This document shows, one piece after another, positions 2,784 through 27,500 of a DNA stretch of 37,133 bases. The stretch is taken from the IMG/VR virus record IMGVR_UViG_3300010375_000036, positions 1-37,133 of that record; one strand, 5' to 3'. Each line of letters opens with the position of its first letter. The stretch's first letter is position 1. This DNA comes from a virus. A model generated the notes under the pieces. The model saw only the letters and a program-made list of their open reading frames with translations. It was not told the DNA's origin and did not search any database. A program made the position numbers and the translations under genes.

Positions 2784-3106
2784 GAAAGCGCCTCGAAGAT
2801 GCGATCGAAGGCTTCCAGCGCCTGGTCGTCGACCAGTGTGTCCATCAACGTCAGATCACTGTCCGAGCCCCGCGGCGCGTCGAGGCTGATGTCGCCCCAA
2901 TGGCTGCGAAACGCCTTGAATGCTGCGCTGACGAACTTGCCCGAGCGGCCCTCTATGTCGCGGGGGTGAAGAGCGCCTTCCCTGATGGCGAGGTAGACAT
3001 CGCTCAAGATGTCCTCGCGAAGCATGGGATCGATCGTGCGAGGCACTACGCGGGCGATGCGTCCGTAGATTGGGTCGATCGCCGCGATCATGGCGATCAT
3101 GTTCAT
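2780..3106 (-). CDS. Sigma-70 region 2/3-like protein fragment
   Basis: A 108-residue protein. Residues 31-42 (EDILSDVYLAIR) resemble the core-binding helix of sigma region 2.2, and ISLDAPRGSDSDLTLMDTL (73-91) resembles the S-L-D-x-P-x-x-x-x-x-x-x-L-x-D stretch at the region 3 boundary of sigma-70 proteins. Region 4, which reads the -35 element, is absent, so it cannot be a complete sigma factor. It may bind RNA polymerase or be a relic. The similarity is by eye and needs a profile search. Confidence 0.5.
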   Translation of the reverse strand: MNMIAMIAAIDPIYGRIARVVPRTIDPMLREDILSDVYLAIREGALHPRDIEGRSGKFVSAAFKAFRSHWGDISLDAPRGSDSDLTLMDTLVDDQALEAFDRIFEALS

Positions 3107-3990
3107 GCCGCCTCCTCGTAAGCCATCAGCAGCGCCTGCCGGAGTGCCAAGGCGCGATCCTCACCGCCGCCCTTGATGTCGAGCACGAAACTGGCCCAGC
3201 CCTTTTGGTCGAACCGCTGAAGCGCGCGGAACAGGCGACTATGATCCAGCGCCTCGCCCGCGACGGCGAGCTTGGTGAGCGCACGGAACACGGAAGCACC
3301 TGCGTTCAACACCTCGCCGGGGAAGGCCTCGGCAATCAGCCGCATAGCGTCAGCACAGACTTTCTCGCCGTGCTTTCGCGCGATTTTCCCGATCGAGGCC
3401 GTGAAGGCGACTTCGCCTGGCACCCATGATTGGGAACCGGTGCGGCGGGAGACCTTCAGGCCAGCTCCGGTCACGATCCGGTTGATGGCGATGGCGTCCT
3501 CATCGCCGGCTGCGACGGCCGCATGGTGATCGTCGAGCAAGCTGATTTTCTTGCGGACGCGGTTCATCTCGACGAACATTGCGGCTTCCTCGGCAACGCT
3601 CGCGTAGGTTGAGATGCAGCAGGGGATGAATCGGATATCGTCCCGATCGAAATGAGCATTCCGCATCAGCGCCGCCTCAAGCCGGTGCTGACCGTCGATG
3701 ACGAACAGGCCTGCGTCGCGGCGGGACACGACAAGCGGCTGGCACTTCCGCCAGTCCCAGCCGCGCGCGATACGCTTGATGAGCGTCTGTGATGCCGGTG
3801 TATCAATGGGACGCTGATAGCTGTCGTCGATCTGCAACTCATTCGGGTGCCGCATCTCGATCGAGGGCGGCGAACCCAGCTGCTCCGGCCATTCCGGTTT
3901 CTTGACCGGCGGCGACGGCAAGAGAGATGCGGGGTCGATCATGTCGGCCATCTCCGGGCGAATGAAGGCGACGTTCGTCATGACGGTCAT
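3103..3990 (-). CDS. ParB/DGQHR-type nuclease-fold protein (DUF6551-like)
   Basis: A 295-residue protein. A ParB/sulfiredoxin-like fold is indicated by an N-terminal Y-Q-R-P-I motif and the signature I-D-G-Q-H-R-L-E-A-A, near residue 100, as in DUF6551 and DGQHR proteins. The C-terminal half is helical. Members occur widely in phages; some ParB-like proteins cut DNA or bind CTP, but the activity of this family is unclear. ATG at 3990 was chosen because it overlaps the upstream stop; a longer start upstream would run into the previous gene. Confidence 0.75.
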   Translation of the reverse strand: MTVMTNVAFIRPEMADMIDPASLLPSPPVKKPEWPEQLGSPPSIEMRHPNELQIDDSYQRPIDTPASQTLIKRIARGWDWRKCQPLVVSRRDAGLFVIDGQHRLEAALMRNAHFDRDDIRFIPCCISTYASVAEEAAMFVEMNRVRKKISLLDDHHAAVAAGDEDAIAINRIVTGAGLKVSRRTGSQSWVPGEVAFTASIGKIARKHGEKVCADAMRLIAEAFPGEVLNAGASVFRALTKLAVAGEALDHSRLFRALQRFDQKGWASFVLDIKGGGEDRALALRQALLMAYEEAA

Positions 3991-4454
3991 GCCGCCCTCG
4001 CGTGGCGGCGTGCATGGTCGGCTTCGACCTGCCCCCACGTCCAATCGGGGTGGCGATCCCAAATCTCGCGGGTATCACGCTCGGCCGCGCGCAGCTTCGC
4101 CAGATAGGCGAGATCCGCGTTCACCTGGTCCTGTCGCAGTTTGATCAGACCGACGAACTCGATGCGCGTCAGGATACTGGTATGCTTGATCTGACCCTCG
4201 CCATCGTCGACGACGTGATGGTCGCGCAGCCCGAAGAAGGACGATTGGCGCGGATCTGCCTGCACGCGCTCCTTCATGCGGCTCTTGACGTTGGATGCGA
4301 TCAGCTTCGAGACGTGGCCACGGACGCACATCTCGGTGAGTTCCTTGTCGGCCAGCACCTTCGGGACCGCATCGGTGATGGCGGCGGCTCGGTCGATAAC
4401 GCCGTTGGCGTCGTGCGCCTCGGTCGCTTCCGCGACGATCTTATTTAACGACAT
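3987..4454 (-). CDS. Hypothetical protein between two ParB-like genes
   Basis: A 155-residue, mainly helical and charged protein ending in a Trp-containing, His/Arg-rich tail. M at 4454 is preferred because AAAGGACAG precedes it as a ribosome binding site; the alternative M at 4472 lacks one. It overlaps the upstream ParB-like gene by 14 bp and the downstream one by 4 bp. Being sandwiched between two ParB-like genes suggests a shared process, but I do not recognise the family. Confidence 0.6.
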   Translation of the reverse strand: MSLNKIVAEATEAHDANGVIDRAAAITDAVPKVLADKELTEMCVRGHVSKLIASNVKSRMKERVQADPRQSSFFGLRDHHVVDDGEGQIKHTSILTRIEFVGLIKLRQDQVNADLAYLAKLRAAERDTREIWDRHPDWTWGQVEADHARRHARAA

Positions 4455-5466
4455 CTTGGGCTGTCCTTTCATTCAGGTCGTCGAGCCTTGCCCGGCGTGC
4501 CTGTTCGGCGGCGGGGAAACCTGCGTGGAAGTCGCGCATCCAGTCGAAGGCGCCGGTGATCGCGCCATCGGCAAAGCCGGCGCCGAGGTACGCGCGCCAC
4601 CAAGCCAGCATCTCAGCCGGGCTCGGCCCCTCGATCAGAGCCTCGATGCGGTCGATCGTCGCCATCATCGGCGCATTGGCCGCGTGATCGTACACCAGCG
4701 GCTCCGGGTCGGGCGGCGGCGTTTCGGCTTTCTCGACCATGGCTGTCAGCGCGGGCGTCGGGAATACCCATGAGCCCGCATCTTTGTGCGCGCCCTCGAT
4801 CTCGCCGTCGCGTGCCATTTCGGCGAGATGGCGGTTACTGAGTCCGGTGATGCGCGCGGCGGTGGAGATCCTGCTCTCATCGCTCGTCGCAAATGACGGA
4901 TCGGGTTTCCGCTCGGCTTGGCGGCCAGCGATCACCGGTAGAGCGGCCGCCTTCTTGCCGATCGCGCCGACCTTCATGTGCGACGCGTTGCCGTGCCGAT
5001 CCAGGTAGGTGCGAACCTGACTGTCGGTTCCGACAGTGACTGGCTTGGGGCGAAGGCTTCCAACGAGGTCGCGTCCGACATGGCAGCGACGCGCTATCTC
5101 ACGATCGCTCCATTGCGCCCATTCGGGGTCGTTCAGCAGCGTGACGACGGCGCGGCGCTTGTCCATGTTCGAGCGGCGATATCCATGTGCTGCGTTGGCG
5201 CCGACCGAGAACAGGACCGCCTCCCGCCGGGTACCCTGCTGCACGTCCGCATCGATTTCCGTCAGGCCTAGGAGGTCATGCGCCTCGACCCGATGGAAGC
5301 CGTCGGCGAGCCAATATTCAGTTCCGTCGTAGAACACCGTCACTGGCGGAAATTTGGCGCCGTCAGCTATCCCCTCGGCGTAGTCCTTGGCGACCTCCAG
5401 GCTGACGTGGTCGCGCGGCTGAGTGCCCCCATCGCGCCGGATTGACGATATTGTGATCAAAGTCAT
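4441..5466 (-). CDS. ParB/RepB/Spo0J-like protein with added DNA-binding region
   Basis: A 341-residue protein. Residues 5-90 are a ParB N-terminal domain, with ADGFHRVEAH (54-63) as the conserved box. A helix-turn-helix follows at about 118-138 (DREIARRCHVGRDLVGSLRP), as in ParB proteins. A second, excisionase-like helix-turn-helix is visible near 199-240. No ParA partner is present in the window, so chromosome-style partitioning is not shown; many phages carry such lone ParB proteins. Codons 143-149 lie in an 18-bp palindrome that recurs at 12699. Confidence 0.8.
   Translation of the reverse strand: MTLITISSIRRDGGTQPRDHVSLEVAKDYAEGIADGAKFPPVTVFYDGTEYWLADGFHRVEAHDLLGLTEIDADVQQGTRREAVLFSVGANAAHGYRRSNMDKRRAVVTLLNDPEWAQWSDREIARRCHVGRDLVGSLRPKPVTVGTDSQVRTYLDRHGNASHMKVGAIGKKAAALPVIAGRQAERKPDPSFATSDESRISTAARITGLSNRHLAEMARDGEIEGAHKDAGSWVFPTPALTAMVEKAETPPPDPEPLVYDHAANAPMMATIDRIEALIEGPSPAEMLAWWRAYLGAGFADGAITGAFDWMRDFHAGFPAAEQARRARLDDLNERTAQDVVK
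5020..5037. repeat. 18-bp palindrome, copy 1 (inside parB-like gene)
   Basis: ACTGTCGGTTCCGACAGT: two 8-bp arms around TT. With the three bases that follow, 21 bp are identical to 12699-12719. The two copies sit in different genes, with opposite coding strands, so protein homology does not explain them. A binding site for a phage DNA-binding protein, for example the ParB-like protein encoded here, is a reasonable inference. Confidence 0.75.
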
Positions 5467-8348: not shown

Positions 8349-9011
8349 CTACGCCCGGCGGCCTATCCATATGACGCGGCCGATGACGTGAACGTCAGCG
8401 GCATCTGCCTCAAAATCGCTGACGTGCGGGCTGTCGGACATGATCAGGAACGTTCCGCGCGGTTGCTTCCGAACGCGTTTGATCATCCCCACGTCGCCAT
8501 AGGTGAGCGCCCAGATGCGGTCCTGTTGCATTATCCGCGTCTGCGCTCGGTCAACCAGGAGAGAGTCGCTGTCGTGCAAGGTCGGAAACATTGAGTCGCC
8601 AATGCCCCGTGCAACGAACAAGCTCGCGGCAGGGCTGTCGGTGATTTGCTGTATCCACTCGCTGTCGAAGAATGAGTATTTCTCCTCGACATAGTCCTCA
8701 ATGTACGTCCCGCCGCCCATGCCGTATTCGACGGGAACCTGTCGCACACGGGTGACGCCAAGCTCCAGCGCCATCTCTTCCGGAGATGGTTTAGTCTCGA
8801 AAGCGTGCTCGTCCTTGTTGTCCGTGTATCCCATCAGGAAGGACACTGTCACATCGAGCGCTCGGGCGATCTCGGGTAGCCGCCTCGTTCTCATCGTGGT
8901 GCCATTCAATATCTGCTGGATCGCTGGCTGGGAGATCCCCGCCTCGCGCGCCAAATCGGCTTGGCTGAGCCCCTTGTGCTCCATGAGTTCGCGTATACGG
9001 TCGGTTCGCAT
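8349..9011 (-). CDS. CI-like repressor, HTH plus S24 peptidase domain
   Basis: A 220-residue protein with the two-domain plan of lambda CI/LexA-like repressors. The Xre-type helix-turn-helix covers about residues 5-60 (SQADLAREAGISQPAIQQIL at 16-35). The S24 domain follows, with Ser140 in GDSMFPTL and Lys178 in GMIKRV as the expected catalytic dyad. The usual Ala-Gly cleavage pair in the linker is not obvious, so RecA-stimulated self-cleavage is uncertain. AAGGA lies 7 bp before the ATG. It should maintain lysogeny by silencing the leftward and rightward early promoters. Confidence 0.9.
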   Translation of the reverse strand: MRTDRIRELMEHKGLSQADLAREAGISQPAIQQILNGTTMRTRRLPEIARALDVTVSFLMGYTDNKDEHAFETKPSPEEMALELGVTRVRQVPVEYGMGGGTYIEDYVEEKYSFFDSEWIQQITDSPAASLFVARGIGDSMFPTLHDSDSLLVDRAQTRIMQQDRIWALTYGDVGMIKRVRKQPRGTFLIMSDSPHVSDFEADAADVHVIGRVIWIGRRA

Positions 9012-9334: not shown

Positions 9335-10357
9335 ATGGCAGGGGGGCGCTATCCATCCGGCAATCGCCGGCCGCGCACTGCCGCCGATGAGGCGGAGTTT
9401 CGCCGACGCGTCGAGGAGGCAAAGTCCAAGGTCGATCTGTCGACCATCGTTGGCCGTCACACCACGCTCAAGAAGACCGGCCGCGAGTTGCAGGGCCTAT
9501 GCGTCTTCCACAAGGAAAGGACGCCATCGCTGCGCGTCAATGACGCCAAGGGCTTTTACCATTGTTTCGGCTGTGGCGCGCACGGCGACCATTTCCAGTT
9601 CCTCATTCAGCACGAAGGATTGACCTTCCAGCAAGCCTATGAGGCGCTGACGAACGAATCCTTCCCGACTGTGGATCCGGCGCAGCGCGCCCAGCGCGCC
9701 GCAGAGGATCAGGCCGAGCGGCAAGCGGCTATCGACGAGGCTCGAGCCTTCTGGGCGGCGGCGATCGATCCTCACGGCACCCCGGCGGAAACCTATCTCC
9801 GCCAGGCGCGCGGCATCACCGCCAATATCCCGCCATCCTTCCGGTTCGGCATGGTGCCCGCCGGCAAGGATGATGACGGCAAGTGGGGCCCCTGCATGTC
9901 GGCGCTGATCGGCGCCGTGACCGACGGCGAGGATCAGGTCGTCGCTATCCAGCGCATATTCCTGCGCAACGACGGGATGGACAAGCGCTGGGCGAAGCCG
10001 CGCAAGTCAAAGCTGACCCTCGGGCGGTACCGCGGTGGCGCGATCAAGATGGGGAACCGTCGCCCCGATCCCGAGGAAATCGGGATCACCGAAGGACCGG
10101 AAGACTGCCATACCCTCGCGCAGGAACTGCCCCACGTCGAATGGTGGGCCGCGCTCGGTACCGCCAACATGGAGGTCCTGGAGTTTCCCGCCACCGTCAA
10201 GCGCGTGGTGATCGCCGGTCAGAATGACGGGCCCGGCCGCGCCGCCGTCGAGCGCGCGGCACTGGCCCTGACTGAGCGAGGATATTTGATCCGGATCATG
10301 TGGCCCGATGCGCGCTTCAAGGATTGGAACGACCAGCTCCGGGGGATTGCCCGGTGA
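9335..10357 (+). CDS. DnaG-like primase (CHC2 zinc finger + Toprim)
   Basis: A 340-residue primase-like protein. The CHC2 zinc-binding domain is at about 33-95, with C-x-x-H (CVFH) and later C-x-x-C (HCFGCGAHGD). The Toprim domain includes ITEGPED with the catalytic Glu (about 249-255). The second acidic motif reads AGQNDGPG where D-x-D is usual: the first Asp is replaced by Gln. The central RNA-polymerase domain of full DnaG is shorter. It would lay primers for phage DNA replication with the adjacent DUF3987 protein, whose start overlaps its stop. Confidence 0.85.
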   Translation: MAGGRYPSGNRRPRTAADEAEFRRRVEEAKSKVDLSTIVGRHTTLKKTGRELQGLCVFHKERTPSLRVNDAKGFYHCFGCGAHGDHFQFLIQHEGLTFQQAYEALTNESFPTVDPAQRAQRAAEDQAERQAAIDEARAFWAAAIDPHGTPAETYLRQARGITANIPPSFRFGMVPAGKDDDGKWGPCMSALIGAVTDGEDQVVAIQRIFLRNDGMDKRWAKPRKSKLTLGRYRGGAIKMGNRRPDPEEIGITEGPEDCHTLAQELPHVEWWAALGTANMEVLEFPATVKRVVIAGQNDGPGRAAVERAALALTERGYLIRIMWPDARFKDWNDQLRGIAR

Positions 10358-11868
10358 GCGCGACGGCCTTCCAGCAAAATTATAACGATGCGGAGGGCGC
10401 CGGCTGGGCCGCGCTTGACATGTCGATCCTGTCGGCCGGTCGCGGCGCTGCCGCTATACTGCCCCGCGAAATGTTCGGCTCTGCGTGGCAGCTGGTCGTC
10501 GATTTGGCTGCCGGCGCAGGTTGCCCCGTCGACTATTCGGCGATGAGTTTCATCGCGTGCGTCACTGCCCTGGTTGGTGCGAAGCGTCGAGTTCAGCCGT
10601 TCGCATCTTCGACGAGCTGGCGCGAGCCATGCATCATCTGGACTGCTTGCGTCGGCGACCCCTCAACCAACAAATCTCCCGGGCTTGAAGCCGCTATCAG
10701 TGGGCTTGAGGACATCGAACGGGACTATACTGCCGCACACAAGTCCTCCTTACCCCTGCATGAAGCCAAACTCGAACGAGCAAAGGCCGAAAGGGCGCGC
10801 TGGCAGGAGGCGGTCAAGGCCGCCACAAAAGAGCATCTCGCGACGCCGCCAATGCCCGACGAGGCGATCCTACCGGATGACCCGATCAGGCGTAGGCTGG
10901 TTGTCAAAGATACGACCCCCGAGGCGCTTGCTGAACTTCTGTCGGGCAATCCGAACGGTCTTATGCACTTTCGCGACGAGTTGGCCGGGTGGCTGATGAG
11001 CTTTGATCGCTATGCGCCAGGCGGCCGCGAGTTCTGGCTCGAAGCCTATGGCGGTCGATCCTATGTCGTCGATCGAAAGTCCAGTAAGGTGCCCTTATCA
11101 ATCACGTTCAACGGCGTGACAGTTCTCGGCGGTATTCAGCCGGAAAAGCTGTCCGAGTGCTTGCTAAATGCCTCTGATGACGGCCTCGTTGCTCGGTTTC
11201 TTTGGGCATGGCCCGATCCGATCCCGTTTACCCGACCTCGACAGATAGCAGACCTCGCATTGCTTGAGCGAATTTACAGACGCGTGGAGGCGCTGCACTG
11301 CGATCACGACGAATATGATCAGGCAATCCCGGTCGTGCTGCCGCTTCATCCCGACGCTAGCGACATCTTCGAAGCGTGGGTGAACGACCAGAGTGCAGCC
11401 GTTCAAGACGCGGCAAGTCTTTACAAAGGCTTTTGCGGCAAATTGCGCGGAACCGTCCTTCGTCTCGCGCTCGTCACAGAACTGATCGAGTGGGCAGCCG
11501 GCCCGCAGGGGCCGGAACCGGATCAGATCAGCATCACATCACTGATGGCCGCAATCGAGTTCGCCGAAAGTTATGCCAAACCTACGGCGCTCCGCGTGTT
11601 CGGAGACGCGGCTAGGCCACCGGCCGAGCGTGACGGGGCAATCCTGGCGCGCCATATCCTCAAAACCAAGGCCGAGATCATCAATCTGCGCGAGATAAAG
11701 CGCTCCTCTGGAATGCCGACGCTGAAGAAAGAGGGTGCGGCCGACGCCGCGATCGAAAACCTTATAGACGCAGGGTGGCTTCGGCGCCTTCGAGACCCGA
11801 ATACCAACGGTCGGCCCAAAAGCGACTTCCTCGTCAACCCTGCGGTTCATGAGGCAAAGCATGGATAG
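10354..11868 (+). CDS. DUF3987 replication protein
   Basis: A 504-residue protein with a GTG start overlapping the primase stop (GTGA). A P-loop-like segment, IIWTACVGDPSTNKSPGLEA (about 91-110), and the later RDELAGWLMSFDRY element match DUF3987 proteins, which accompany Toprim primases in phages and plasmids and are thought to act as replicative helicase or helicase-loader analogues. The canonical Walker A GK(S/T) is NKS here. The C-terminal part contains a winged-helix-like region ending near residue 495. Confidence 0.8.
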   Translation: MSATAFQQNYNDAEGAGWAALDMSILSAGRGAAAILPREMFGSAWQLVVDLAAGAGCPVDYSAMSFIACVTALVGAKRRVQPFASSTSWREPCIIWTACVGDPSTNKSPGLEAAISGLEDIERDYTAAHKSSLPLHEAKLERAKAERARWQEAVKAATKEHLATPPMPDEAILPDDPIRRRLVVKDTTPEALAELLSGNPNGLMHFRDELAGWLMSFDRYAPGGREFWLEAYGGRSYVVDRKSSKVPLSITFNGVTVLGGIQPEKLSECLLNASDDGLVARFLWAWPDPIPFTRPRQIADLALLERIYRRVEALHCDHDEYDQAIPVVLPLHPDASDIFEAWVNDQSAAVQDAASLYKGFCGKLRGTVLRLALVTELIEWAAGPQGPEPDQISITSLMAAIEFAESYAKPTALRVFGDAARPPAERDGAILARHILKTKAEIINLREIKRSSGMPTLKKEGAADAAIENLIDAGWLRRLRDPNTNGRPKSDFLVNPAVHEAKHG

Positions 11869-12307
11869 CTGGAGGAAGGTCGCGGCCGATAAATTGGCGT
11901 CGAGCCATAACGCAACCATCTCGCCGCCCCCAGAACGAAAGCCTCTCGAAATTCTCACAGAGAGGATCGAGCGCTTGTCTCGAGATCGTGCGCCGCCGAA
12001 GGTGGCGAGTGTGGCTGATTGGTCAGCCGTAATGCGCGATGCCGTCCGTTTGATACGTGATGGATGGGCGGAAAAGGCGCTGGCGCTGGGCTGGACAGAT
12101 CTCGATCTGTTCGGCGTCGGCGCCAAGGATAGTTGGGATTTCTCTGGGCTAGCGGTCTGGCTTCAGGGTCGCGAACTTCTTGCGCTCACGCCGGACGATG
12201 CCGTGGTGCGGACTGAAACCGGGCGCGCTTGGTTCCGCCGCCAAGGCTGGGGGCACGGCAAGGATGCCGACAGTCCTACCATTCCTCTTTGGGAGTTCGG
12301 ACGATGA
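11861..12307 (+). CDS. Conserved phage protein downstream of DUF3987
   Basis: A 148-residue protein. ATG at 11861, preceded by GAGGCAAAG, is preferred; another ATG 12 bp earlier is in frame. It overlaps the DUF3987 stop by 8 bp. The central part GWAEKALALGWTDLDLFGV (about 71-89) and the Trp-rich end are typical of short proteins next to alphaproteobacterial phage primases, with no assigned activity. Its 3' end abuts the candidate origin. Confidence 0.7.
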   Translation: MDSWRKVAADKLASSHNATISPPPERKPLEILTERIERLSRDRAPPKVASVADWSAVMRDAVRLIRDGWAEKALALGWTDLDLFGVGAKDSWDFSGLAVWLQGRELLALTPDDAVVRTETGRAWFRRQGWGHGKDADSPTIPLWEFGR

Positions 12308-12310
12308 TGG

Positions 12311-12482
12311 TTTTGGCAGTTTTGACAGTTTTGGCAGCGGCCGTGCGTCTGTCACCGGCCCTCAGCGCGAGGAAGTCCCCCTCTCTCTATAGGATTAGCA
12401 TCAAAGTAGATTATCTATCTATTTACAAAGAGATAGCGAGGCGGGCTGGGGGCCTCTGCCAAAAGCGCCAAAAGCGCCAAAA
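12311..12482. other. Candidate phage replication origin
   Basis: Three contiguous 9-mers TTTTGG/ACAG (12311-12319, 12320-12328, 12329-12337) are mirrored by three contiguous 9-mers CTGCCAAAA, GCGCCAAAA, GCGCCAAAA (12456-12464, 12465-12473, 12474-12482) in inverted orientation. Between them is an AT-rich segment (about 12389-12436) in an otherwise GC-rich genome. Iterons flanking an AT-rich unwinding region directly after primase/helicase genes are the classic design of lambdoid-type origins. Confidence 0.6.
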
Positions 12483-12506
12483 CCTTTCGACCGCTGAGGT
12501 GTGCTG

Positions 12507-12731
12507 ATGCGCTCCACACTCGCGCCGTTTGCCGTTCTGGGCCACGAAGCCGACGACGCGATGGCTCGGCGTGCCGCTGCTGCGGCCTGGCATCGCGAAG
12601 GCATCGTGCTGCTCAATCCGAAGTGGTTCCATAGCTGGGCCGACGCCAAGCAGGCGGAACTGTTGGCTGAGAAACTCTGGGGCAAGCGCGGAAAGGACAC
12701 TGTCGGTTCCGACAGTGACGATGGGGTTTAA
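12507..12731 (+). CDS. Small hypothetical protein
   Basis: A 74-residue protein. ATG at 12507 is preceded by GAGGTG at a suitable distance. It contains an Ala/Arg-rich helix near residues 19-30 and a Trp/Lys motif NPKWFHSWADAKQ (about 33-45); the acidic end (DSDDGV) is encoded by the palindrome copy at 12699-12716. The family is not recognised. Its stop overlaps the next start by 11 bp. Confidence 0.6.
   Translation: MRSTLAPFAVLGHEADDAMARRAAAAAWHREGIVLLNPKWFHSWADAKQAELLAEKLWGKRGKDTVGSDSDDGV
12699..12716. repeat. 18-bp palindrome, copy 2
   Basis: Same sequence as at 5020-5037, with one further complementary pair here (C12698 with G12717) giving 9-bp arms. It overlaps the end of one gene and lies just before the start of the next, about 200 bp right of the candidate origin. 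A half-site CCGACAGT also occurs at 12267-12274, near the origin. Confidence 0.75.
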
Positions 12732-24595: not shown

Positions 24596-27500
24596 ATGGC
24601 GCGTGGCACCACGACCCAAAACCTGTTTCTCCAGGTCGGCGGTAGCGCCAGCGGGCTCCAGCAGGCCGCGAAGGTTGCCAAGGTCAGCCTAGCCGAGATC
24701 GGCGCCGGCGCGGCGAACATGCAGCAGGTCGTCGCCGACAATTTCAAGAAGTTGGGCGGCGGCGATCTGGTGCAATCGGCCCGGCAGTTGGAGGCTTCCT
24801 ACCGCCAAGCGTTCGCGAATATCCGCGCCAATGCCGAGAGCACCCTGTCCAAGCCGATGTCGGCCGCTTCAGTGGTCACCGGCAATGTCCAGGCCGCCGA
24901 GCAGCAACTCGCGACCGCGCGCAATACCGCGCAGGTATATCGCGACATGGCCGATGCGCAGATGCGCTACGTGACCACCAGCGCGACCGTGACAACCGCC
25001 GACCGCGAACTGGCCGTCGTGTTGGAAACGCAGGCCTTGGCATCGAAGGAAAGCGTCGTCGGGATGGAGCAACAGGTGCTCGTCCTCAAGCGCCTGCAGG
25101 GTGCACTCGGCCCGGTCGCAGATGCAAGCGAAGAGGTTGCCGCATCACATACCCGCATGGGCGCATCCGGCATGATTGCCGAGCACGTTGTCCGGTCATT
25201 CTCGGACTCGATCGCTGCAGGCCAGTCGCCAGTGCGCGCGCTGACCATGGAGATGGGGCGCATCACGGAGGCGATGACCCTCTACGCGGCGACCACGAAC
25301 GCGACCGGCGGCGCCATGGGCAAGTTCGCCACCTTCATGGGCGGCCCTTGGGGCTTGGCGATCAGCGTCGGCGTCGCGGCCCTGATCCCGCTTGCGGAAC
25401 ACCTGTTCAGCGCCGGTGAGGCGTCGGACACCTTGAAGGGCAAAACGCTCTCGCTGGTCGACGCGCTCAGCGCCGAGAAGTTCGGGACGGAAGCCGCGAC
25501 TAAGGCGATCCGCGACTACAACGACGAAAAGAAGCGTCAGCAGGACAACGATAGCAATGAAGCCCGCAGGGCGATTGCTTCGGCTCGTCAGCGCATTGCA
25601 GAGGCGACCGGCCGCCGCGACCAGTTCAAGCAGCAGGCGAACACGCTTGCCGCCGCACCCGTTCCCCTCGACGAAAGCGCCCAGGCGACGAGGGCTGCGA
25701 CTATCTCGGCGCTGCGCGGGAAGGCGAACGAACAGCAGTCGTTGATCAACGATTCCCAAGCGGCAATCCGCAACAGCGAGATCGCCGAGGCGGCCGAGGC
25801 GGCGAAAGCGGCCGCTGATCCGATCGAGGCGATCCGGCAGAAGTATAAGCATCTCGCCGACGCGGCGAGCGAGGCCGCGCAGTCGAACGACAAGCTGGCT
25901 GCTGCCCTTGCCGGCGTCCTCTCGAAATACGCGATCCAAGAGGCGGCCGAGATCAAGGTCGCGCAGGCGAAGAAGGCGGCAGAGCGCACGGCGGCGAACG
26001 ATAACCGCCAGTCTGGCCGGCAGATCGACATTGGCCAGGCCGAGGACATCGTTCACGGCATCGGCGGCCGGATCACCAGCACCTATCGCAGCACCGCCGA
26101 GCAGCAGGTGTTGTACGACCGGTACAAGGCCGGCAAGGGGCCGCTGGCGGCGAAACCCGGCACCTCGATGCATGAGAGCGGCCAGGCGCTCGACATCGCC
26201 AAGTCCGCTGGCATGACGCTGGCTAAGATCGTTGAGGCCTTCGCCCAGCAGGGCGTCCACCTGTCCGAGCGGCTGGACGAGGGCGACCATTATCATGTCG
26301 CCTGGGGTCCGAAGGGGCCTTCGGCAGACACTCTGGCCCGCCGGCAGCAGAGCGCCACGCGCAAGGATGCAAACGATGATCGCGCATTCCAGAACCAGCT
26401 GCGCGAGGCGAACAATTCCTACCTTGAGGCGATGCTCGGCCTGAGCACGACGACAGAGGAGCGCTATCAGGTTTCGGTCGCGCGCCTCCGCTCCGATCTC
26501 GACGGCCGGGACAAGGCGCTCGACGACCAGGTGAAGGCCGGGAGCCTGTCCGAACAAGAAGCGCTCCAGCTGAAGGTCGTCTACGGGATGACCGAGCAGC
26601 TGCAGGAGCAGCGGGCGAAGCGGGAGCAGATGACGGCACTGCTCGACCAGCAGCTGGCTGCCACCCGCACGCAGATCCAATCCGACCTCACGCTCCTCGA
26701 CCTTCAGCAGCGCGGCGCGATCGGGCGCAAGGATCAGTATAGCCTCGCTCAGCAGGCGCTGGCGAAGCAGCAGGAAGACACGCGCGCCGGCATCTCCCAG
26801 CGCATCAACAACGCCGCCCAGGACCCCGACGATGCCGCGCGCGCCGTCCAGGAATCGCAGAACCTGCCCGCGATTGAGGCCCAGCAGCGCACCAACCTCG
26901 CCAAGCAGTATCAGAGCCCACTCGATCAGTATCATGATCGCCTGAAGGCCAATGTCGGCGACATGGGCGACGCCCTCCAAGGCCTCGAAGTCACCGGCCT
27001 GAACAGCCTTGAGGACAATCTTGTCGGTATCGCGGACAAGAGCGAGACCGCTTCTCAGGCGGTCCGCAAGATGGTTGCGAGCATGCTGATGGAGATGGCG
27101 AAGCTCGCCGTCGAGAAGGGCATTCTGTCGCTCTTTAGCTTCGGCCTAAAGGACGGCGGCCTCACATCTGGTAAGGCGAGCGGCTTCGCGAATGGGGGCA
27201 TACCGGGCTTCGCCACCGGCGCCAGTGCTACAGTCCTCAACGGCGTCATTCGCGGGCCGGGCAGCGGCCGATCGGACAGCATCCTCGCCCTCGCTGGCAG
27301 GAAGCTGATCCGGGTGTCAAACGGCGAAGGCATCGCCAACGAGCGCGCCGTGAAGCAGTGGTGGCCGATCATCGATCAGATGAACAAAGGCACATTCCGA
27401 GGCTTCGCTGACGGCGGCCTTCCCTCTGATCTGCGGCAGGCTGACCTGTCCCCATCGGATATTCGGACCCTGTCGGCACCACGCATGTCCGCTTCGCCCG

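Follow-up and report, generated by a model that had tools for sequence, protein, structure and literature searches.

The window, that is the whole 37,133-bp stretch of DNA analysed here, is the GC-rich genome of a temperate phage encoding a CI-type repressor (8349-9011). Its replication genes begin with a DnaG-type primase (9335-10357, + strand) carrying a CHC2 zinc finger and a Toprim domain, recognised by its matches to PF01807 (E 1.6e-27), PF13362 (E 3.3e-14) and PHROG 510. The adjoining gene (10300-11868, + strand) encodes a DUF3987 protein, which matches Pfam PF13148 (E 2.5e-62; 211.6 bits for a cut-off of 27) and the DNA helicase family PHROG 2373, and which received no NCBIfam name. Between this gene and the repeats described below lies a small ORF (11849-12307, + strand), with no Pfam or PHROG match and with homologues located likewise in L009 and L020, two Sphingomonadales loci that possess a window-type DUF3987; it may encode a replication accessory factor. 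The sequence-only reading had placed the repeats right after the primase and DUF3987 genes, which is correct for the gene context and has to be amended for this intervening conserved ORF. No phage DNA polymerase was recognised near the replication genes. Two ParB-like genes (3103-4062 and 4441-5466, - strand) sit among - strand genes of unknown function that form a single run; one of them also matches DUF6551.

Analysis of the region downstream of the small ORF confirmed two arrays of three 9-mers each, in opposite orientations. The left array (12311-12337, + strand), a set of proposed initiator binding sites, consists of the units TTTTGGCAG (12311-12319), TTTTGACAG (12320-12328) and TTTTGGCAG (12329-12337). 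The right array (12456-12482) reads, on the - strand, TTTTGGCGC (12482-12474), TTTTGGCGC (12473-12465) and TTTTGGCAG (12464-12456), and both arrays are kept in L009 and L020. Allowing up to three mismatches, the pattern GTTTTGGCNNTTTTGRCNNTTTTGGC occurs at two places only in the 37,133 bp, which are the two arrays, and none of 100 dinucleotide shuffles contained it at the same tolerance: chance does not produce the two inverted 9-mer triplets. Inverted tandem 9-mers were also scored without any motif, over 400-bp windows in steps of 100, and the element ranked first in the phage genome.

The spacer between the arrays (12338-12455) is 118 bp long and constitutes the proposed melting region. The roughly 50 bp of AT-rich DNA previously described between the arrays therefore exist, at about 12388-12437, but form a core within a longer spacer rather than its full length. 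The richest 40 bp of the spacer reach 75% AT, more than every 40-bp window within 1 kb on either side, and a core holding the top-AT 40 bp of the surrounding 2 kb is also found in most relatives. In addition, a TATCTATCTATT tract in the spacer is common to the window and the Sphingomonas prophage L009.

Two explanations of the element that do not involve a DNA-binding protein were considered. A frame running through the repeats (12304-12507, MMVLAVLTVLA...QKRQKRQN) is open and its ATG overlaps the preceding stop codon, as for the start of a short gene; however, a 9-bp unit preserves any frame by itself, the L009 repeats lie in another frame relative to the ATG, and the peptide is not conserved and has no Pfam or PHROG match. 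Given this lack of conservation in L009, the element most likely codes for no protein, and the probability of a short gene is very low. Both arms taken together form one imperfect 34-bp inverted repeat (12309-12342 / 12451-12484) with 82% complementarity, which could pair as RNA, in a terminator or attenuator, or as a cruciform. Such a hairpin is extremely improbable given that 108 nt separate the arms, that mismatches fall mainly at unit positions 8-9 with no co-variation between the arms (AG versus GC), and that every unit keeps TTTTGNC by itself. Moreover, the numbers of left and right units are unequal in many relatives, and spacer length varies between a few tens of bp (L053, L160, L164) and more than 100 bp.

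To place the element in a wider context, DUF3987 loci were gathered by protein homology only, giving 69 loci with the window included and 48 after removal of near-duplicates (47 obtained via homology, plus the window). Two tight alignments were used for this, a 12-protein alignment being too diverse to scan with; a single-protein scan of IMG/VR for close relatives of the window's DUF3987 protein returned none. In 36 of the 48 loci, the best inverted TTTTGNC cluster anywhere in the locus begins within the 800 bp that follow the end of the DUF3987 gene, against 4.5 expected for a random position. TTTTGNC sites reach a density of 7.9/kb over the 400 bp that follow the gene, versus 0.72/kb elsewhere, and the spacing of neighbouring units is mostly 9 bp (80 of the 136 pairs lying 7-12 bp apart). 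The element starts 8-150 bp past DUF3987 in most loci and about 440 bp past it in the window type, where one small ORF lies between. DUF3987 is the only gene found common to these loci. The comparison with relatives that the sequence-only reading had proposed as a check was thus favourable, both for the close relatives L009 and L020 and on the wider scale of the DUF3987 family.

No exact TTTTGNC cluster was found at the expected place in the other 12 loci. Diverged arrays, counted here as negative, could nevertheless be recognised by eye in L088, L105, L117 and L152, built for instance from ATTTGGCAC triplets in L088 and from TTCTGTCCC in L105; inspection of L146, L153 and L154 revealed no such array either. 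A separate observation concerns the 188-kb Acinetobacter plasmid pYUSHP14-1, which also carries aminoglycoside resistance genes and whose DUF3987 gene is accompanied by inverted TTTTGTCAG pairs (L160, 5503-5560). This locus is possibly an integrated element.

DUF3987 was detected in 33 of 398 evenly sampled Sphingomonadales genomes, and inverted tandem 9-mers directly follow many of these genes, with a sequence that varies by subfamily. The units are TTGTCGCNN triplets in L199, L202 and L203, CTATTGGCA in L214, CTATTGTCC in L216, GCTGCATTA in L221, GGGACAATA in L215, and the TTTTGNC type in L208, L209, L211 and L217. When scored without reference to any motif, 18 of the 27 Sphingomonadales loci and 27 of the 49 loci of the viral-scan set (window included) had arrays exceeding 99% of the null. 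The signal stood out at period 9 in comparison with periods 7, 8, 10 and 11, and control windows at the same loci, taken inside the gene or further downstream, exceeded the threshold in only 0-2 of 21-28 cases. The two downstream control exceptions, L051 and L052, are explained by a small ORF that places the true element there. A different arrangement was observed in L156 (after 8153), L220 and L223, where a long inverted repeat with CTTGCGCGC follows DUF3987 in place of short 9-mers, and the DUF3987 proteins of these three loci have another C-terminal tail.

The association was also examined in the opposite direction, from DNA pattern to gene. The sequence collections were scanned with the degenerate pattern TTTTGNCNNTTTTGNC, 86 to 146 bases, GNCAAAANNGNCAAAA, with no protein reference; earlier scans using a narrower spacer or stricter triplets had yielded no match. 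In IMG/VR, nine contigs matched and eight of them carry a DUF3987 gene; in the ninth, a fragment of 5 kb, the element is close to the end. In GTDB genomes, 31 places matched and a DUF3987 gene adjoins 12 of them (L012, L014, L019, L020, L021, L022, L027, L028, L029, L035, L039 and L040), in hosts that include Sphingomonas, Methylococcaceae, Desulfurivibrio, Calidithermus, Rubrobacteraceae, Chloroflexi, Planctomycetes, Fibrisoma and Clostridia. Among these, L027 is a prophage of Sphingomonas sp. BK235 that shares the layout of the window, at about 26,191-26,351 of NZ_SLXN01000001.1. A part of the other GTDB matches are imperfect, adjoin genes for RNA polymerase, glutamine synthetase, aconitase or uvrA, and look like chance occurrences.

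This two-way association bears on a third explanation, in which a ParB-like protein would bind the arrays as a partition centromere. Two candidates are indeed encoded in the window, both matching PHROG 1033 'ParB-like partition protein' (E 3.6e-23 and 6e-15), and tandem short repeats are possible in centromeres. These genes lie 7-9 kb away, however, and across phyla it is DUF3987, not ParB, that recurs beside the element and with which the 9-mer co-varies, so that a centromere appears very unlikely.

The sequence-only reading had found no obvious protein to bind the repeats and no classical DnaA- or O-like initiator. This calls for correction, as the neighbouring DUF3987 protein emerged as the best candidate. 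An AlphaFold model built from 33 homologues (pLDDT 90.1, pTM 0.87) predicts an ATPase body and, with high confidence, a well-defined winged helix at the C-terminus (model residues 402-475), with helices at 402-417, 424-430 and 441-451 and strands at 421-423, 455-457 and 470-473. The wing, at model residues 465-467, corresponds to G504-R505-P506 in full numbering, of which the G and R are invariant and the P nearly so. Foldseek returned the AAA+ subunits of MCM2-7 as best PDB matches (E 1.9e-5, TM about 0.4), with RuvB further down, and no PDB match was obtained by sequence. DUF3987 has no MCM Pfam match and is not a member of the MCM family by sequence, the resemblance being one of fold only. 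The missing initiator is thus probably the DUF3987 protein itself.

The C-terminal tail also separates loci with and without TTTTGNC arrays. Among proteins with a GRP-type tail, 30 of 42 have at least three exact TTTTGNC sites within 500 bp, versus none of the five intact DUF3987 proteins with other tails (the truncated L115 and L151 being left out); E. coli YfjI, a DUF3987 protein with no GRP wing, lacks such a cluster as well. For the 45 loci in which an array was clear, 9-mer distances correlated with winged-helix distances (rho 0.75). After correction for the ATPase domain the partial rank correlation was 0.58, a value reached by none of 500 permutations, with kinship partly controlled, whereas the reverse partial correlation, between the 9-mer and the ATPase domain, was 0.10. 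The winged helix is therefore the domain that tracks the repeat sequence, and the repeats appear to be recognised by the C-terminal tail of DUF3987.

Recognition by DUF3987 would also be compatible with an operator, from which either this protein or a repressor would regulate downstream genes while replication started elsewhere. Operators commonly contain tandem and inverted sites, a CI-type repressor is encoded in the window, and DNA-binding initiators often autoregulate. Nevertheless, the element lies after and not before DUF3987 in oriented loci, the neighbouring genes vary between loci while DUF3987 is constant, two arrays around an AT-rich core would be an unusual operator design, and what the 9-mer follows is the winged helix of a protein predicted to be a replicative helicase. 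We consider an operator unlikely.

The repeats are very probably the start site of phage DNA replication, a candidate designation drawn from sequence analysis. The iteron-origin layout suggested at the outset gains support from the linkage to DUF3987 across loci and from the AT-rich core. First, the element lies beside a primase and a helicase; secondly, inverted arrays surround an AT-rich core in most elements; thirdly, the Rep/ori module of SaPI and Cch2 of SCCmec provide precedents. Our preferred reading, to which we assign a probability of roughly 0.78, is that the element is an iteron-type phage origin, at which the adjoining DUF3987 initiator-helicase would bind the 9-mers, melt the AT-rich core and load. 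In the mechanism that we propose, each 9-mer of the two inverted triplets would be bound by one C-terminal winged helix of DUF3987, the GNC part being read by the recognition helix and the TTTT/AAAA part by the GRP wing; both the stoichiometry on each array and the wing contacts are guesses. The ATPase domains would then assemble on both arms, melt the AT-rich spacer and load as the replicative helicase. The adjoining DnaG-type primase would prime at the opened origin, and extension would be carried out by a DNA polymerase, presumably that of the host since no phage polymerase was recognised near the replication genes.

Cumulative GC skew, another of the checks suggested for an origin, did not clearly point to a start site in the window: a local rise is present at 12-13 kb, but the detrended minimum lies at 7.3 kb. 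No skew signal was observed at the element in the Bartonella plasmid described below or in the related phage NatCom_43819. As a replicon with a single candidate initiator we retained the Salinibacter plasmid pSR11 (11.5 kb), whose only recognised replication protein is DUF3987 and whose best inverted 9-mer array lies right after the DUF3987 gene. A Bartonella tribocorum plasmid (L167) had been considered for the same role and was rejected, as it also encodes a RepC initiator. This plasmid contains two more inverted 9-mer arrays away from DUF3987, at about 10.5 and 10.9 kb, one made of TTTTGAAGG, the same unit as at DUF3987, and the other of TTTTGTCAG.

The proposed origin shares tandem sites, an AT-rich region and an adjoining initiator gene with iteron plasmid origins of the RepA/RepE and TrfA type. 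Plasmid iterons are longer and usually in one orientation, and their Rep protein is not a helicase. A closer parallel is found in the S. aureus pathogenicity islands, where, in the account that PMC7581432 gives citing Ubeda et al. 2007, the SaPI Rep uses its C-terminal domain to recognise multiple short iterons, which lie in an origin immediately following the rep gene; the element studied here is likewise directly downstream of a helicase gene. SaPI Rep proteins belong to the DUF927 and D5_N/Primase_Cterm families, whereas the helicase of the window matches DUF3987 (PF13148) only. The arrangement thus works like a SaPI module without being a member of that group, since the helicase family differs. 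Further differences are the 9-mer unit with its recurrent TTTTGNC core, the two inverted sets, and a host range of many phyla; moreover, binding is experimental in SaPI and predicted by computation here. While following the SaPI logic, the arrangement differs in its helicase family, in its inverted arrays of 9-bp units and in its breadth. In SCCmec, the helicase Cch2 binds a set of three tandem iterons in a putative origin shortly past its gene, and is proposed to act as two hexamers (PMC7581432); it is of the D5_N type with an A-family polymerase primase, and its 5-nt iterons form one direct-repeat block.

The prediction that DUF3987 itself is a novel replication helicase, in mobile elements associated with a primase, comes from Kazlauskas et al. 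2018 (PMC5862659). The sections of that paper dealing with DUF3987 describe neither origin sequences nor a link between its C-terminal domain and a DNA site, and the primase of the window differs from those of the elements treated there in being a separate DnaG-type protein. In the PICMI satellites of Vibrio, a primase gene that is searched for with DUF3987 and DUF5906 profiles is described as needed for efficient replication, which its loss lowers (PMC10803314); these are small elements, and the corresponding part of the article identifies no origin. Our search of an open-access library found no paper that ties DUF3987 to an origin.

DUF3987 is widespread and has so far been only a predicted helicase; the present arrangement gives it a testable role. 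The association predicts the origin, the initiator and the binding code at once, and covers chromosomal islands as well as phages and plasmids, in hosts from Sphingomonas to Clostridia and Bacteroidales. It offers a means of finding the origins of many mobile elements not yet characterised, and a basis for mini-replicons that can be built and tested. We would give even odds to the broader proposal that DUF3987 proteins make up another large family of initiator helicases, MCM-like and self-loading, each with an origin of two inverted 9-mer sets around an AT-rich core right after its gene, and with winged helix and 9-mer co-evolving as lock and key. If so, genome sequence could suffice to read off the origins in many phages, plasmids and islands that are uncharacterised, and solitary arrays would be origins replicated in trans.

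Solitary arrays of this kind were encountered in the GTDB scan, where other remaining matches constitute a family in Bacteroidales (L013, L015, L026, L030, L032, L033, L034 and L037). This conserved element of about 130 bp contains inverted TTTTGACAC-type 9-mer pairs and is present as one exact copy per genome, in differing gene contexts and with no DUF3987 beside it; a search for a degenerate DUF3987 tail near these arrays found none. The two genomes of this family that were searched, G024 and G025, harbor DUF3987 genes elsewhere, with other 9-mers there. These elements are perhaps solo origins or remnants. In another Bacteroidales genome (G013), a solo array (L016) and a DUF3987-linked array (L040) have the 9-mer TTTTGTCAG in common, as if one initiator could act at both.
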